Shown in pieces: positions 42,188-46,595 of a DNA stretch of 57,890 bases. The position numbers were made by a program, and so were the translations under genes. Location: positions 1-57,890 of IMG/VR virus record IMGVR_UViG_3300020438_000041. The stretch is one strand, 5' to 3'. A model generated the notes under the pieces. It was not told the origin of the DNA. It saw nothing but the letters and a program-made list of their open reading frames with translations, and searched no databases. This stretch comes from a virus. The stretch's first letter is position 1. Each line of letters begins with the position of its first letter.

Positions 42188-44956
42188 TTATGCGTGTGTA
42201 AAGACCATTCCACCGTCAGTCACAGGGGAAGCAGTATCAAGTACAAATCCACGTGCAACAGGAGGTGTCTCAGTTAGACCACCTGTACCAGTACCAGTGG
42301 CATCACCACCTGTAACGGTAGTACCAGTTCCTGTAGCATTAGCTAATCGGTTGGCTAGCAACTGAGTTGAATCCGTACCAGCAGTGATCTGTCCACTTCT
42401 ATTTGTAGTAGTGGTGCCAGATACACTTGCAATATTCTGACCAGAGGAACTAGTACTAGTAGTAATATTACTAGCAGCCTTGACAAATGGATCATTCAAT
42501 CCATACCCAAAGTCTCTTGGGTCTTTAAGACTTGGACCACCACGTCCTACGTGTGCTTCAACACTACCAACCTCCCAATGTAAGTGTGGTGCACTAGAAG
42601 TACCTGTATTACCTAGGTTACCTACAAATTCTCCAGCAGGGAACATCTTACCGACTCCCAGTGGAGATTTCTGCTGCATATGACCATACAAATGAGTAAG
42701 GTTATCATCCTGAGTAGTAAAGGTAACGTAGTTACCATACCCTGCATCAAAACCATTACTAGTAATCTTAGCCTTATCAGGTAGGTACATAGGTTGTCCA
42801 CCTAAGTCACCCTTGAATCCTACGTCAATTCCTTGATGATTAGGTCTGTGTTGTGTCTTAAATCCAGACGTAAGTACAGGTGACATTTGGGATGCACTAA
42901 TGGTACCATTACCACCGTAACCACCACCCATACCATAAGCACCACCACCTTGACCAGTTGCTTCTCCACGTTCTCCTTTACCTTTTTCAGTTGGGAACGC
43001 AGTGTTAGTATTGTCAACGAAATTACTAATGTTACCTATAATATCACCACCTGCCATCTCACCTAGATTATTCTTCATCGCCTTCATCTGTTTGGCTCCA
43101 GGTACCCAATCAGGTACCAAATCTATTATTTTACTTACCATACTCGTCATACCTTTCACTACAGCTACTATAGCCTGAACTACTTTACCTATAATCTGTA
43201 CTGTCCATTGAATAGTCTTGAATACCGTCTGTAGTACTGGTACCAAAGTTTTAATCAATATCTTAGCAATGATACCAATAATTCTACCGATATTTTTTAA
43301 TGCTGTAATGAATCCACCTGAACCACCTTCTCCTCCAATACCAAAGGACTCAGCCACACTGTTCAATGCATTACCAATACCTGCTGTCATTTCATTCCAA
43401 GTATTCATCACAGGTCTGAAGGTCTCACCCCAATCAAATCCTTTAAAGACAGAACCAATACCCTCACCTAAGAACTTACCTAGGTTCTCACCTAACCAAG
43501 CACCAAGTGCAGCACCAATAGGACCAGCAACTGCGAAACCTAGTACAGTACCAGCACCAGCACCTAAACCAGCACCAGCAGACCTACTAATAATCTTATT
43601 CTTATCCTTACTTAAACTACCATCTGCGAGACCAGCTTGCACCTGCTCTTTTGACATATTATTTTCTGACATCAAGCGTGCCATCTCTTCATCGTTTGCT
43701 TCCATTGCACCGAAGCCAGCACTAAGAAATGATCCAAGTATAGGTACCTTACCAAGTCCAGCTCTGGCATTTTTTATCATACCACCAGTCTTTGATAATA
43801 CGTTACTAGTAGTAGATACACCACCACTAAGAGCACCTGGTGCACCTTTAATTAAACCACCTAGTCCTTGTAAACCCTTAGCAGAGAAGTTCTTCAAGGC
43901 AGGACCAATTCCTTTCAAGAAATTTCCAAAAGAAGATAGACCCTTAGTAAAAAACTGTGTAATAGTATTGAGATTGATACTCTTAATCGACTTGAGCAAA
44001 TTGTTCATCGACTTGAGTATACCTTGTATGGCAGTAGAAGCCTTACCAGGTAATGATTTTAATAGTTCTGGGATTCCTTGAACTGTTGCTCTTATATTCT
44101 GACCCGACCGTTGAGCAGGGTTACTAGCTAGTCGCAACTGTTCTGCTAGGTTGAACTTACCCATCCTAGGTAGTCCAGAAGTACCCTCAAGTAATGACTT
44201 ATTAGTTAATTGTGCTGGCGATAATTTACCTGTTAATCCACCAAAAAAATTACTAGTATTAGTTACTCCCGTACTGACAAAATTCTTTGCGTCACTTAAA
44301 CCTCGTGTTGCTCTGAATCCAAGTGGTAATCTAGGACCAGTAAATGGTGTGCCTAAACGTTGTCCAAAGTTTGTTACATCATCACCAAAATTTCTAATTA
44401 AACCACCAGCTCTAGTTTTACCTGCATCAAAGCCCCTTCTACCAATCTGTCCTTTTCTCCATATATTAGTCTTATCCCAGTCTTGCTTCCACATCTGGTT
44501 GAAACCCATCGTGGCTTGACGAGTATCAAACTGATTAAATTTAGGTGCGGAACTTAATACCTGACTCTGAAGTCTTCTTAGTATCTCAGGACCAAACAAT
44601 AAACCTAACAGTCCTAAGTTTCTTAAGTTAACTGCTGGTAGGTTAAACTTACCACTACCACCTGGACTACTACCACCTCTCTGACCTAACCTAAACCCAC
44701 CTTGCTCTTCAATCTTATTCTCTTGATCCTGCATCTTACGCAGGCTTATCATCTTCTTCTCTAATAGAAGACGTTGACCATCAACTTTTAATTGTTCCCG
44801 TTGAGTCCTAACCAAATCACTAAGCAAACTGTTAGTGATCATATGCTGCTTTAATTGAGCAGCAGCTATCGTCCCGTCTTTCTCGCTACTAAAGATAGCA
44901 GCTTTGATACGACTGGAGTCTCCAGATCCACCAAAAGTTTTAGTTATGTCAGCCAT
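42188..44956 (-). CDS. Tape measure/hub protein with M23 peptidase domain, 922 aa
   Basis: A long helical protein with a Gly-zipper stretch at about 460-510 (LGAGAGTVLGFAVAGPIGAALGAWLG) and hydrophobic helices at about 555-640 (IIGIIAKILIKTLVPVLQTVF, IDLVPDWVPGAKQM). Both are typical of tail tape measures that enter the host membrane. Residues about 695-830 form an M23 (LytM-type) endopeptidase: HQGIDV at about 707, HLYGHM and HLHWEV at about 791 supply the zinc-binding H-x3-D and HxH ligands. The gene follows gp26 and the small frameshift ORF, the usual place of a tape measure. It probably cuts peptidoglycan cross-links during DNA entry. Confidence 0.82.
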   Translation of the reverse strand: MADITKTFGGSGDSSRIKAAIFSSEKDGTIAAAQLKQHMITNSLLSDLVRTQREQLKVDGQRLLLEKKMISLRKMQDQENKIEEQGGFRLGQRGGSSPGGSGKFNLPAVNLRNLGLLGLLFGPEILRRLQSQVLSSAPKFNQFDTRQATMGFNQMWKQDWDKTNIWRKGQIGRRGFDAGKTRAGGLIRNFGDDVTNFGQRLGTPFTGPRLPLGFRATRGLSDAKNFVSTGVTNTSNFFGGLTGKLSPAQLTNKSLLEGTSGLPRMGKFNLAEQLRLASNPAQRSGQNIRATVQGIPELLKSLPGKASTAIQGILKSMNNLLKSIKSINLNTITQFFTKGLSSFGNFLKGIGPALKNFSAKGLQGLGGLIKGAPGALSGGVSTTSNVLSKTGGMIKNARAGLGKVPILGSFLSAGFGAMEANDEEMARLMSENNMSKEQVQAGLADGSLSKDKNKIISRSAGAGLGAGAGTVLGFAVAGPIGAALGAWLGENLGKFLGEGIGSVFKGFDWGETFRPVMNTWNEMTAGIGNALNSVAESFGIGGEGGSGGFITALKNIGRIIGIIAKILIKTLVPVLQTVFKTIQWTVQIIGKVVQAIVAVVKGMTSMVSKIIDLVPDWVPGAKQMKAMKNNLGEMAGGDIIGNISNFVDNTNTAFPTEKGKGERGEATGQGGGAYGMGGGYGGNGTISASQMSPVLTSGFKTQHRPNHQGIDVGFKGDLGGQPMYLPDKAKITSNGFDAGYGNYVTFTTQDDNLTHLYGHMQQKSPLGVGKMFPAGEFVGNLGNTGTSSAPHLHWEVGSVEAHVGRGGPSLKDPRDFGYGLNDPFVKAASNITTSTSSSGQNIASVSGTTTTNRSGQITAGTDSTQLLANRLANATGTGTTVTGGDATGTGTGGLTETPPVARGFVLDTASPVTDGGMVFTHA

Positions 44957-45128
44957 TAGATTGGTTCTGTTGTCTCAATTTTTCCTCTTCAAGATGTTGT
45001 ATTAATAGAGTCACATATATCTCTCGTTCCCAAGGAAGTAGATTCTCTAGTTCTGTTAGAGAATACTTATGATGTTGCATAAGAGAGAAGTTAGTCCTGA
45101 AATAGTTTTCAAGACTGTTATACGACAT
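44949..45128 (-). CDS. Small ORF downstream of gp26, candidate frameshift partner (tail chaperone C-terminus), 59 aa
   Basis: The protein (SLMQHHKYSLTELENLLPWEREIYVTLLIQHLEEE) is strongly helical with the ELE-LPW-REIYV pattern of the downstream half of G/GT-type tail chaperones. The ATG at 45128 overlaps the gp26 TGA; a GTG lies one codon earlier. No Shine-Dalgarno sequence precedes it. The frame continues upstream in the -1 register into the gp26 slippery site, so the main product may be a gp26 fusion. It overlaps the tape measure start by eight bases. By position it corresponds to the T4 gp51 slot. Confidence 0.78.
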   Translation of the reverse strand: MSYNSLENYFRTNFSLMQHHKYSLTELENLLPWEREIYVTLLIQHLEEEKLRQQNQSNG

Positions 45129-45841
45129 CACGAGCCGAAAAAAGAGGCTAGTCCTTCGATGGTGTACTCATTATCAACGCCAGTGTTAGGGTTCTTCACA
45201 TTAACAGTGTGAGATAACTTAGGCATATTAGCAAAGAATTTTTGTAGGTTTTCAAATTGTTTAGATGTTAAACTATCTAGGAACCCAGTAAGTTCTTTCT
45301 TAGTTGCGTTAGAAGCTTCGTGTACTGTATCACCTTCAATAATTTGATCGATACACTGTGCGATCACCTCAAATGCCTCTTCAGGTTTGGGGTTTGTTGA
45401 AAAGTTATTCTTGACAAAGGTATCTAGTTGAGGATACTTCATCTTGACAGTGATAGCGTCAGTAATTTTCACCATATCAGTGATGCCTTCAGGTTTCTTA
45501 ACCTTAACGTCATCTAAGTCAATGGATACATCAACTACTGTCTCATTGTCATCAGTACAAGTAATCTTAAGATCTAGTTGCTCACTCACAGATTTACCAC
45601 GGATTTGAAGGAATAAAAATTCCAAATCAAACATAGGTATAGTTCTGACTTTTAATCTACTCTGAATACAATTAGTAAGAAGAGTACATACAGCATCAGT
45701 AATCTGTTTCTCATTCTCTGACTCCATAGCCATCAACAGTACCTTCTCTTCTTTAACTAAGAAGGGACGGAACTTAATTGTCTGGCCAGTTGAAGGAAGT
45801 TCAGTGGTATAAATCGGCACCTCAATTTTTGGTAAAGGCAT
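45128..45841 (-). CDS. gp26: Baseplate hub/tail chaperone protein gp26, 237 aa
   Basis: The sequence matches the T4 gp26 family (T4_baseplate domain). PIYTTELPSTGQTIKFRPFLVKEEKVLLMAMESE covers residues 9-42 and LTNCIQSRLKVRTIPMFDLEFLFLQIRGKSVSE follows. T4 gp26 has 208 residues. gp26 takes part in building the central baseplate hub. It ends LASFFGS followed by TGA, and its last codons contain T_TTT_TTC in frame (45137-45143), a slippery heptamer leading to the following ORF. A fused product would be 297 residues. A TCTAAATA element lies 22 bases upstream of the ATG. Confidence 0.87.
   Translation of the reverse strand: MPLPKIEVPIYTTELPSTGQTIKFRPFLVKEEKVLLMAMESENEKQITDAVCTLLTNCIQSRLKVRTIPMFDLEFLFLQIRGKSVSEQLDLKITCTDDNETVVDVSIDLDDVKVKKPEGITDMVKITDAITVKMKYPQLDTFVKNNFSTNPKPEEAFEVIAQCIDQIIEGDTVHEASNATKKELTGFLDSLTSKQFENLQKFFANMPKLSHTVNVKNPNTGVDNEYTIEGLASFFGS
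45137..45143 (-). promoter_or_regulatory. Candidate -1 ribosomal frameshift site T_TTT_TTC
   Basis: The heptamer T_TTT_TTC is in the gp26 reading frame (TCT TTT TTC GGC). A one-base slip back continues CGG CTC GTG ATG and reads straight through the small ORF to its stop at 44949. There is no stop in between, and the gp26 frame ends only two codons later (GGC TCG TGA). I see no strong downstream stem by eye. Confidence 0.75.
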
Positions 45842-45863: not shown

Positions 45864-45871
45864 TATTTAGA
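45864..45871 (-). promoter_or_regulatory. Candidate late promoter TCTAAATA
   Basis: TCTAAATA on the minus strand, one base from TATAAATA, is 22 bases upstream of gp26 and contains the TAA stop of the 242-aa gene. The identical octamer precedes gp4 on the + strand at 47415-47422. It would drive gp26, the small ORF, tape measure and hub genes late. Confidence 0.45.
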
Positions 45872-46595
45872 CGGGATGTCGGGAAGCATTTTTAGCACAA
45901 TAAATCACAGTCCTACCACTCCTAGGTTCCTTACCTAAGACAAGACCATCATTTATATGATCACGATTAGTATCAAAGTTCCCATTATATATCCCATTCA
46001 ATACTTTTTGTGTCTCATCATCGAACTCTAAGTTACCACCTATCTTCTTACGAAATGGTTTGGAATATAATTTAACAGCATTCTTAGATGGATAGAAGGG
46101 TAACTTTATACCTAACATACCATCCACAGCTAGTGCTTCTTCTATTGTCTTCCAATTAGTACCATTAATATCATTAAGAGTCTCTAGTACCTCAGTAGTT
46201 CCAATGAAATACGTTACCATCACAGCACGTGTTACCGTAAGAGCAACTACTCTAGGTGCTGCTTGTATATTAATATAATAATCATCATCCTCTATAACAT
46301 CTATAAAGACTCTATGATTAGGTTTAATAGGAATGTTGAGATGATCTGCTACTTTCTTTAAGTTGCTACCGTAATCTGGTTCATCATTTCTCCAGTTAGA
46401 TGTACGGTCACCAAAATACTGATGAGTTATCTTATCACCAGTGTACTTGTGAAGGCAGTTCTTCTCTCTGTTTATAAAATATAGTTTAGATCTATAAGTG
46501 TCGGGTTCATATTGCACCACAAATAGATCCAATCCAGGAGCAAGGTCTTTTTTCTTGACGTTAGCTAGGGATAAACAGTACTCAAGATCGAACAT
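45867..46595 (-). CDS. Unrecognised protein, 242 aa, probable cargo gene
   Basis: I do not recognise this family. The protein is soluble-looking, mixed alpha/beta, with Asp/Asn-rich loops and blocks such as LDLFVVQYEPDTYRSKLYFINRE, HRVFIDVIEDDDYYINIQAAPRVVALTV and LPFYPSKNAVKLYSKPFRKK. It ends GRTVIYCAKNASRHPV. It lies between gp26 and gp54 but carries its own sigma-70-type promoter and a leader shared with the 2OG oxygenase at 21965. That promoter suggests early or independent expression rather than a virion part. Function is unknown. Confidence 0.7.
   Translation of the reverse strand: MFDLEYCLSLANVKKKDLAPGLDLFVVQYEPDTYRSKLYFINREKNCLHKYTGDKITHQYFGDRTSNWRNDEPDYGSNLKKVADHLNIPIKPNHRVFIDVIEDDDYYINIQAAPRVVALTVTRAVMVTYFIGTTEVLETLNDINGTNWKTIEEALAVDGMLGIKLPFYPSKNAVKLYSKPFRKKIGGNLEFDDETQKVLNGIYNGNFDTNRDHINDGLVLGKEPRSGRTVIYCAKNASRHPV

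Follow-up and report, generated by a model that had tools for sequence, protein, structure and literature searches.

A short tail assembly chaperone and a -1 extended form of it are encoded directly 5' of the tape measure gene in phage lambda (G and GT), and the available part of a review describes G-T frameshifting as widely conserved, with T4 as an exception (PMC5009743). Within the T4-like phages, TAC-N genes are known to contain slippery poly-T runs (PMC12846349, citing Vladimirov et al. 2022), and some of these phages have a fused long gene in addition to a short one (PMC10885494, citing Vladimirov et al. 2022), according to the accessible portions of both papers. Since poly-T sites and fused long genes have already been reported, frameshifting at the gp26 locus of T4-like phages is known, and the locus described here, from IMG/VR virus record IMGVR_UViG_3300020438_000041 (the whole stretch of 57,890 nucleotides [nt] was analyzed and is called the window), is a further instance. 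The first-pass annotation of the window had taken this layout to be undescribed at the T4-like gp26 locus, a claim that the accessible text of these reports on poly-T chaperone sites (PMC10885494, PMC12846349) does not bear out.

Judged from its sequence, this marine phage of the T4-like group very probably produces its tail assembly chaperone in two forms by a -1 slip near the end of gp26. We are highly confident that a programmed -1 frameshift, which would fuse gp26 to the small open reading frame (ORF) behind it in the manner of lambda G/GT, is the best explanation, because the slippery codons are invariant, the -1 frame is conserved, start codons are missing in relatives, T4 gp51 is encoded in a single frame, and the fold of gp26 is chaperone-like; the same lines of evidence support the G/GT-type reading that the first-pass annotation had proposed. 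The likeness to lambda is one of layout. The features of the locus are as follows.

45128..45841, minus strand: gp26, short chaperone form (TAC-N), 237 amino acids (aa) (PF12322 and phrog_150 profiles, AlphaFold model)
45152..45157, minus strand: internal Shine-Dalgarno (SD)-like element, GAAGGA, 8 nt 5' of the heptamer (16S pairing energy, conservation in relatives)
45137..45143, minus strand: slippery heptamer T_TTT_TTC (sequence, conservation in relatives)
45128..45130, minus strand: zero-frame gp26 stop, TGA (sequence)
44949..45137, minus strand: -1 frame, predicted gp51-like C-terminal domain (TAC-C), 62 codons plus stop (phrog_634, phrog_150)
45093..45116, minus strand: 10-bp hairpin with a 4-nt loop, starting 20 nt 3' of the heptamer, a candidate stimulator (folding tests)
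42188..44956, minus strand: tape measure ORF, 922 aa, with M23 peptidase domain (phrog_167, PF01551)

The 3' end of gp26 reads GCC TCT TTT TTC GGC TCG TGA. T_TTT_TTC indeed occupies 45143-45137 in the zero frame, with two codons (GGC TCG) between it and the stop, as the first-pass annotation had stated. After the slip, the -1 frame would read CGG CTC GTG ATG; it is open through the small ORF until the TGA at 44951-44949, and the fusion of 297 residues announced in that annotation is reproduced as 235 + 62 aa. Its placement of the small ORF directly before the tape measure gene also holds: the 3' end of the small ORF (44949) overlaps the start (44956) of ORF 42188-44956, the gene pair lies directly 5' of this ORF, and the ORF matches tape measure profiles (best, phrog_167, E 1.3e-11) as well as the M23 peptidase family (PF01551, E 4.5e-13). 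The product of the tape measure ORF is likely the client of the gp26 chaperone. The 44 mechanical ORFs of at least 100 aa in the window contain X_XXY_YYZ heptamers in frame 50 times, and 17 of these ORFs can be extended in the -1 frame by 45 codons or more; gp26 is the only one in which a heptamer lies no more than 10 codons from the stop and opens into such an extension.

Slip site and small frame in relatives

The site was compared in two sets of relatives, the first being the best 80 of 445 found with peptide patterns that lie outside the slip site and the second the best 80 of 594, for which one of the two patterns contains the Phe-Phe motif at the protein level. Scans with single distant gp26 proteins yielded few loci (7, 2, 2, and 6), those of the first three scans being included in the full set. 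Together with 12 phage records, the full set comprised 183 readable loci, 165 of them non-identical; these 165 are mutually related, and the SD and hairpin tests were run on cluster representatives (80, 60, or 38). T_TTT_TTC stood before the stop and in phase in all 79 readable loci of the first set (the 80th, L014, ends before the stop). The first-pass annotation had proposed a check of heptamer and -1 frame across relatives; in the full set, T_TTT_TTY was present at 163/165 non-identical loci (TTTTTTC in 150, TTTTTTT in 13), and in 159 of these 163 the -1 frame ran 45 codons or more without a stop, with three ending at a contig edge and one closed. Of the 12 additional phage records, 11 had TTTTTTC, and Rhizobium phage IC12 also had the heptamer.

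If TTTTTTC were merely a by-product of a conserved Phe-Phe, with the small ORF a decayed or unexpressed remnant, one would expect Phe-Phe at every site, and in fact it is found at 163/163; T4 gp26 likewise retains Phe-Phe without a shift. However, T_TTT_TTC occupies 150/163 sites but only 3 of 362 other Phe-Phe pairs in the same loci, and T_TTT_TTY is also rare there (17/362), which indicates that codons and not amino acids alone are kept at the site (this control used mechanical ORFs of at least 100 aa on both strands and counts related loci repeatedly). Moreover, the C-terminal domain is conserved at the protein level. We consider the by-product explanation scarcely credible. Transcriptional slippage, in which the T run would shift the frame of the mRNA, is very improbable, too. 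At least six T are present at the site in 163/163 loci, but the run is exactly six in 150 of them (seven in 4, eight in 9), which is short for such slippage, it always starts at codon position 3, and the SD-like element and the hairpin described below work on ribosomes.

The small ORF encodes a gp51-like domain (phrog_634, "baseplate hub assembly catalyst," E 5.2e-29) and also matches positions 240-279 of phrog_150 (E 0.0011). In many cyanophage records this frame is annotated as a separate gene, and in none of 29 fetched records were gp26 and gp51 joined (one record, L084, carries no annotation). Such separate annotation would suit translational coupling, in which ribosomes terminating on gp26 re-initiate at an overlapping ATG and produce a free gp51-like protein. 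Indeed, the ATG of the small ORF in the window overlaps the gp26 stop (TGATG), and ATG, GTG, or TTG lies no more than 8 codons after the slip in 72/159 relatives; therefore, re-initiation is possible at those loci. On the other hand, none of these codons occurs among the first 16 post-slip codons in 51/159 open-frame loci, and residues ahead of any start are conserved: in the post-slip sequence, position 2 is occupied by I, L, V, or M in 79/79 cluster representatives and position 1 by R in 59/79. The annotated gp51 starts vary widely and are inconsistent between records, and the gene is absent from several annotations. In agreement with the first-pass annotation, the small ORF has no SD sequence, the best 16S-tail pairing anywhere within the 22 nt before its ATG being -2.3 kcal/mol, compared with -5.9 kcal/mol for the element before the heptamer; that element is too distant from the ATG to serve initiation. 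Coupling would also leave unexplained the slippery codons at 163/165 loci and the fused gp51 of T4. Coupling is thus improbable, and the sequences indicate that the small frame is entered by read-through rather than started.

Candidate stimulators around the heptamer

The GAAGGA of the window is replaced by GAGGG in most relatives. A conserved glycine accounts for the GG at positions -11 and -10 relative to the heptamer in almost every locus, and the Glu preceding this Gly is encoded by GAG in 92 and by GAA in 28 loci, compared with 1060 GAG and 2586 GAA in gene bodies and 19 GAG and 83 GAA at other Glu-Gly pairs. The mean 16S pairing energy over 163 loci was -6.53 kcal/mol, versus -5.25 kcal/mol after synonymous randomization (0/300 as low), and the excess was found again with 80 and with 38 cluster representatives (0/300 as strong). 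The SD-like element is kept beyond what the protein requires. Its distance of 8 to 9 nt from the heptamer corresponds to that of the internal SD stimulator in Escherichia coli dnaX, which lies about 10 nt upstream of the slip site.

Downstream of the heptamer, where the first-pass annotation had seen no strong stem, a 10-bp hairpin is predicted at 45116-45093. The 64-nt stretch that contains it folds with -13.9 kcal/mol (z -2.55), and only 4/200 shuffles and, in two runs of synonymous randomization, 2/200 and 3/200 sequences were as good. Over the 60 nt after the site in 38 representatives, the mean z against shuffles was -1.59, with 17 representatives below -2, whereas two control stretches gave -0.34 and 0.17. 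RNAalifold found no single common structure for the 38 representatives because the stem register differs among clades, and therefore, an arm-swap test was used. The arms at +11..+22 and +26..+41, with stems that start 4 to 6 nt past the site in relatives, favored their own partners; none of 300 swaps was as good under any of the four clusterings (z between -8.2 and -15.1), whereas the lowest z of the controls was -2.4 across twelve tests. When 45 offsets were scanned, the signal peaked at +12 (z -6.9 and -10.9); +18 and +24 were notable at 80% clustering (-4.1 and -5.1), and elsewhere z was not below -3.0. Thirteen loci, including P-SSM2, have one common arm register. In most of these 13, the stem begins 4 to 8 nt past the heptamer; in the clade of the window, a 10-bp stem begins 20 nt downstream instead. 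The hairpin is not universal among relatives, and a search of 44900-45400 against Rfam returned only a chance match to a small nucleolar RNA (E 9.8).

Counterparts in T4 and the fold of gp26

In T4, gp26 (208 aa) and gp51 (249 aa) are encoded by separate genes on opposite strands. PF12322 matches both proteins as well as gp26 of the window, whereas the phrog_634 C-terminal domain is found in gp51 and not in T4 gp26. T4 gp51, a single unbroken protein, can be aligned over the junction of the predicted fusion by hhalign (probability of 99.2 for 240 columns) and by blastp (E 9e-5), with VF-KLLV in gp51 facing FF-RLVM in the fusion. In T4 gp26 and four near copies (L197-L199, L202), Phe-Phe is encoded by TTC TTT, and behind the Phe-Phe of T4 gp26 there is no chaperone domain. 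Phages GEC-3S, Lazarus, and AS-gz likewise have a gp26 that ends without the heptamer and a separate gp51, as in T4, and the public record of Lazarus labels both proteins tape measure protein assembly chaperones. T4 gp26 (L093, 1803-2429) also weakly matches the gp28 family phrog_1140 (E 9e-4); T4 gp28 is located at L093 4349-4882 and may, from sequence similarity, be a further chaperone relative.

gp26 of the window matches PF12322 (E 1.7e-69) and phrog_150 ("baseplate hub," E 2.3e-76); NCBIfam had no match for gp26 or the small ORF. An AlphaFold2 model of gp26, made from a 35-sequence alignment, had a mean predicted local distance difference test score of 89.7. When the model was compared with 866 chains by VIA-align, the HK97 tail assembly chaperone 2ob9 ranked at the top, matching residues 1-90 (Z 7.2, 84 residues, root mean square deviation 3.6), followed by 3klu (Z 6.8), 3fgx (Z 6.2), and 5ir0 (Z 4.6) and then by unrelated chains with Z of 2.3 or less. 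We take 3klu and 3fgx to be prophage proteins of the HK97-type chaperone family. In Foldseek, 2ob9 had the highest probabilities (0.77 and 0.80) among the 50 matches shown. A sequence search of the Protein Data Bank (PDB) with the gp26 alignment gave chance-level matches only (E 0.12 and 0.13). Immediately 5' of gp26, a 242-aa ORF (45867-46595) has no Pfam match and only a weak PHROG match (E 0.015).

Weighing the proposed frameshift, its mechanism, and known systems

Besides the start codons close to the slip, several observations weigh against a stimulated frameshift in a chaperone gene. In Synechococcus phage S-SCSM1 (L092) the heptamer is kept, yet the -1 frame runs into a stop after 4 codons, and the Vibrio phages VPALA and K483 (the heptamer-less pair among the 165 non-identical loci) and K476 (the one such case among the 12 additional records) have no heptamer. 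Only 17/38 representatives fold better downstream of the site than synonymous controls at the 5% level, and in the same test two control stretches had 10/38 and 2/38 significant, so that one control is not clean. The stem register of the window is unsupported over 38 clusters (42/500 swaps as good), though supported over 79 (0/500), and its support across relatives is weak to moderate. Within-clade covariation is modest, with 14/500, 42/500, and 64/500 by three measures for clade A6 (19 of 58 protein-selected loci plus L100, the stem being taken from one member) and 0/500 and 4/500 for A5 (14 of 28). Finally, Foldseek found no match of the gp26 model in the PDB at an E of 0.001 or less (2ob9, E 0.6), and a Z below 8 can stem from a common arrangement; the modeled N-terminal domain of gp26 appears to resemble a solved tail assembly chaperone, with some doubt on account of both values.

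In S-SCSM1 (L092, 3160-3370), it is a longer spacer that closes the -1 frame, and the gp51 domain is in the +1 frame; this may be either a real loss or a sequencing error. At the gp26 3' ends of VPALA, K483, and K476 (L088, L089, and L193), the -1 frame still encodes the C-terminal domain, and CTT TTC or CTT TTT occurs among the final gp26 codons, possibly a T_TTY tetramer slip site.

By the frameshift mechanism that we propose, gp26 would be the short tail assembly chaperone. Ribosomes would be slowed near its 3' end by the internal SD-like element and the downstream hairpin, and some would slip on T_TTT_TTC from TTT-TTC to TTT-TTT and then translate the gp51-like domain in the -1 frame, giving a less abundant long chaperone of 297 aa. 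If the two products act as lambda G and GT do, the short one would coat the tape measure protein, whose gene follows immediately, and the long one would recruit tail-tube or baseplate parts. The sequence shows the site and its conservation, the open -1 frame, the single-frame counterpart in T4, and the resemblance in fold; we infer from these the occurrence of the slip, its rate, and the roles of the two products. We lean, by a small measure, toward a broader proposal: frameshifting in cyanophages and their kin would be driven by a complete three-part signal in which U_UUU_UUY is preceded at about 9 nt by an internal SD and followed by a hairpin that shifts in register between clades while its pairing is kept; this signal would compensate for the weakness of the heptamer on bacterial ribosomes and set the ratio of the chaperones, and the T4 lineage would have left frameshifting via gene duplication, with one copy fused and the other losing the slippery codons.

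A frameshift at this locus would correct gene models in a very abundant group of marine phages and recast gp51, the "baseplate hub assembly catalyst," as part of a tape measure chaperone in these phages. The SD-like element and the hairpin are candidates for controlling the proportion of short to long form and can be tested directly, and the step from a frameshift to the separate genes of T4 would form a natural series in which a recoding event was replaced through gene duplication. Neither an SD-like stimulator nor a hairpin at the gp26 slip site was found in the literature searched, though the full text of Vladimirov et al. 2022 may contain them; as far as these searches reach, both are undescribed. 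Novelty is limited, and what is added is the probable three-part signal and the comparison with T4.

The lambda G/GT heptamer is G_GGA_AAG, unlike the T_TTT_TTC of the window; that of E. coli dnaX is A_AAA_AAG, and the dnaX frameshift product is truncated, not extended. dnaX, although a different gene from gp26 of the window, combines three parts, an upstream internal SD, a slippery heptamer, and a downstream hairpin, as given in the accessible part of the source (PMC5600365); at the gp26 site the SD-like element and the heptamer correspond to the first two, and the hairpin is a candidate for the third. At the TAC locus of Vandenendeviridae and Andersonviridae, a -1 frameshift was likewise predicted from a conserved open frame and a poly-T sequence, but in other phage families and with the motif GTTTTT in place of T_TTT_TTC, going by the available portion of that report (PMC12846349). 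Among the closest described systems is the TAC-N/TAC-NC pair of T4-like phages, that is, gp26/gp51 (Vladimirov, Gautam, Davidson 2022, Virology 566:9-15), which, as far as the papers citing that work show, has the same genes, the same poly-T type of site, and the same logic of fusion as the window, whereas T4 itself uses two separate genes.

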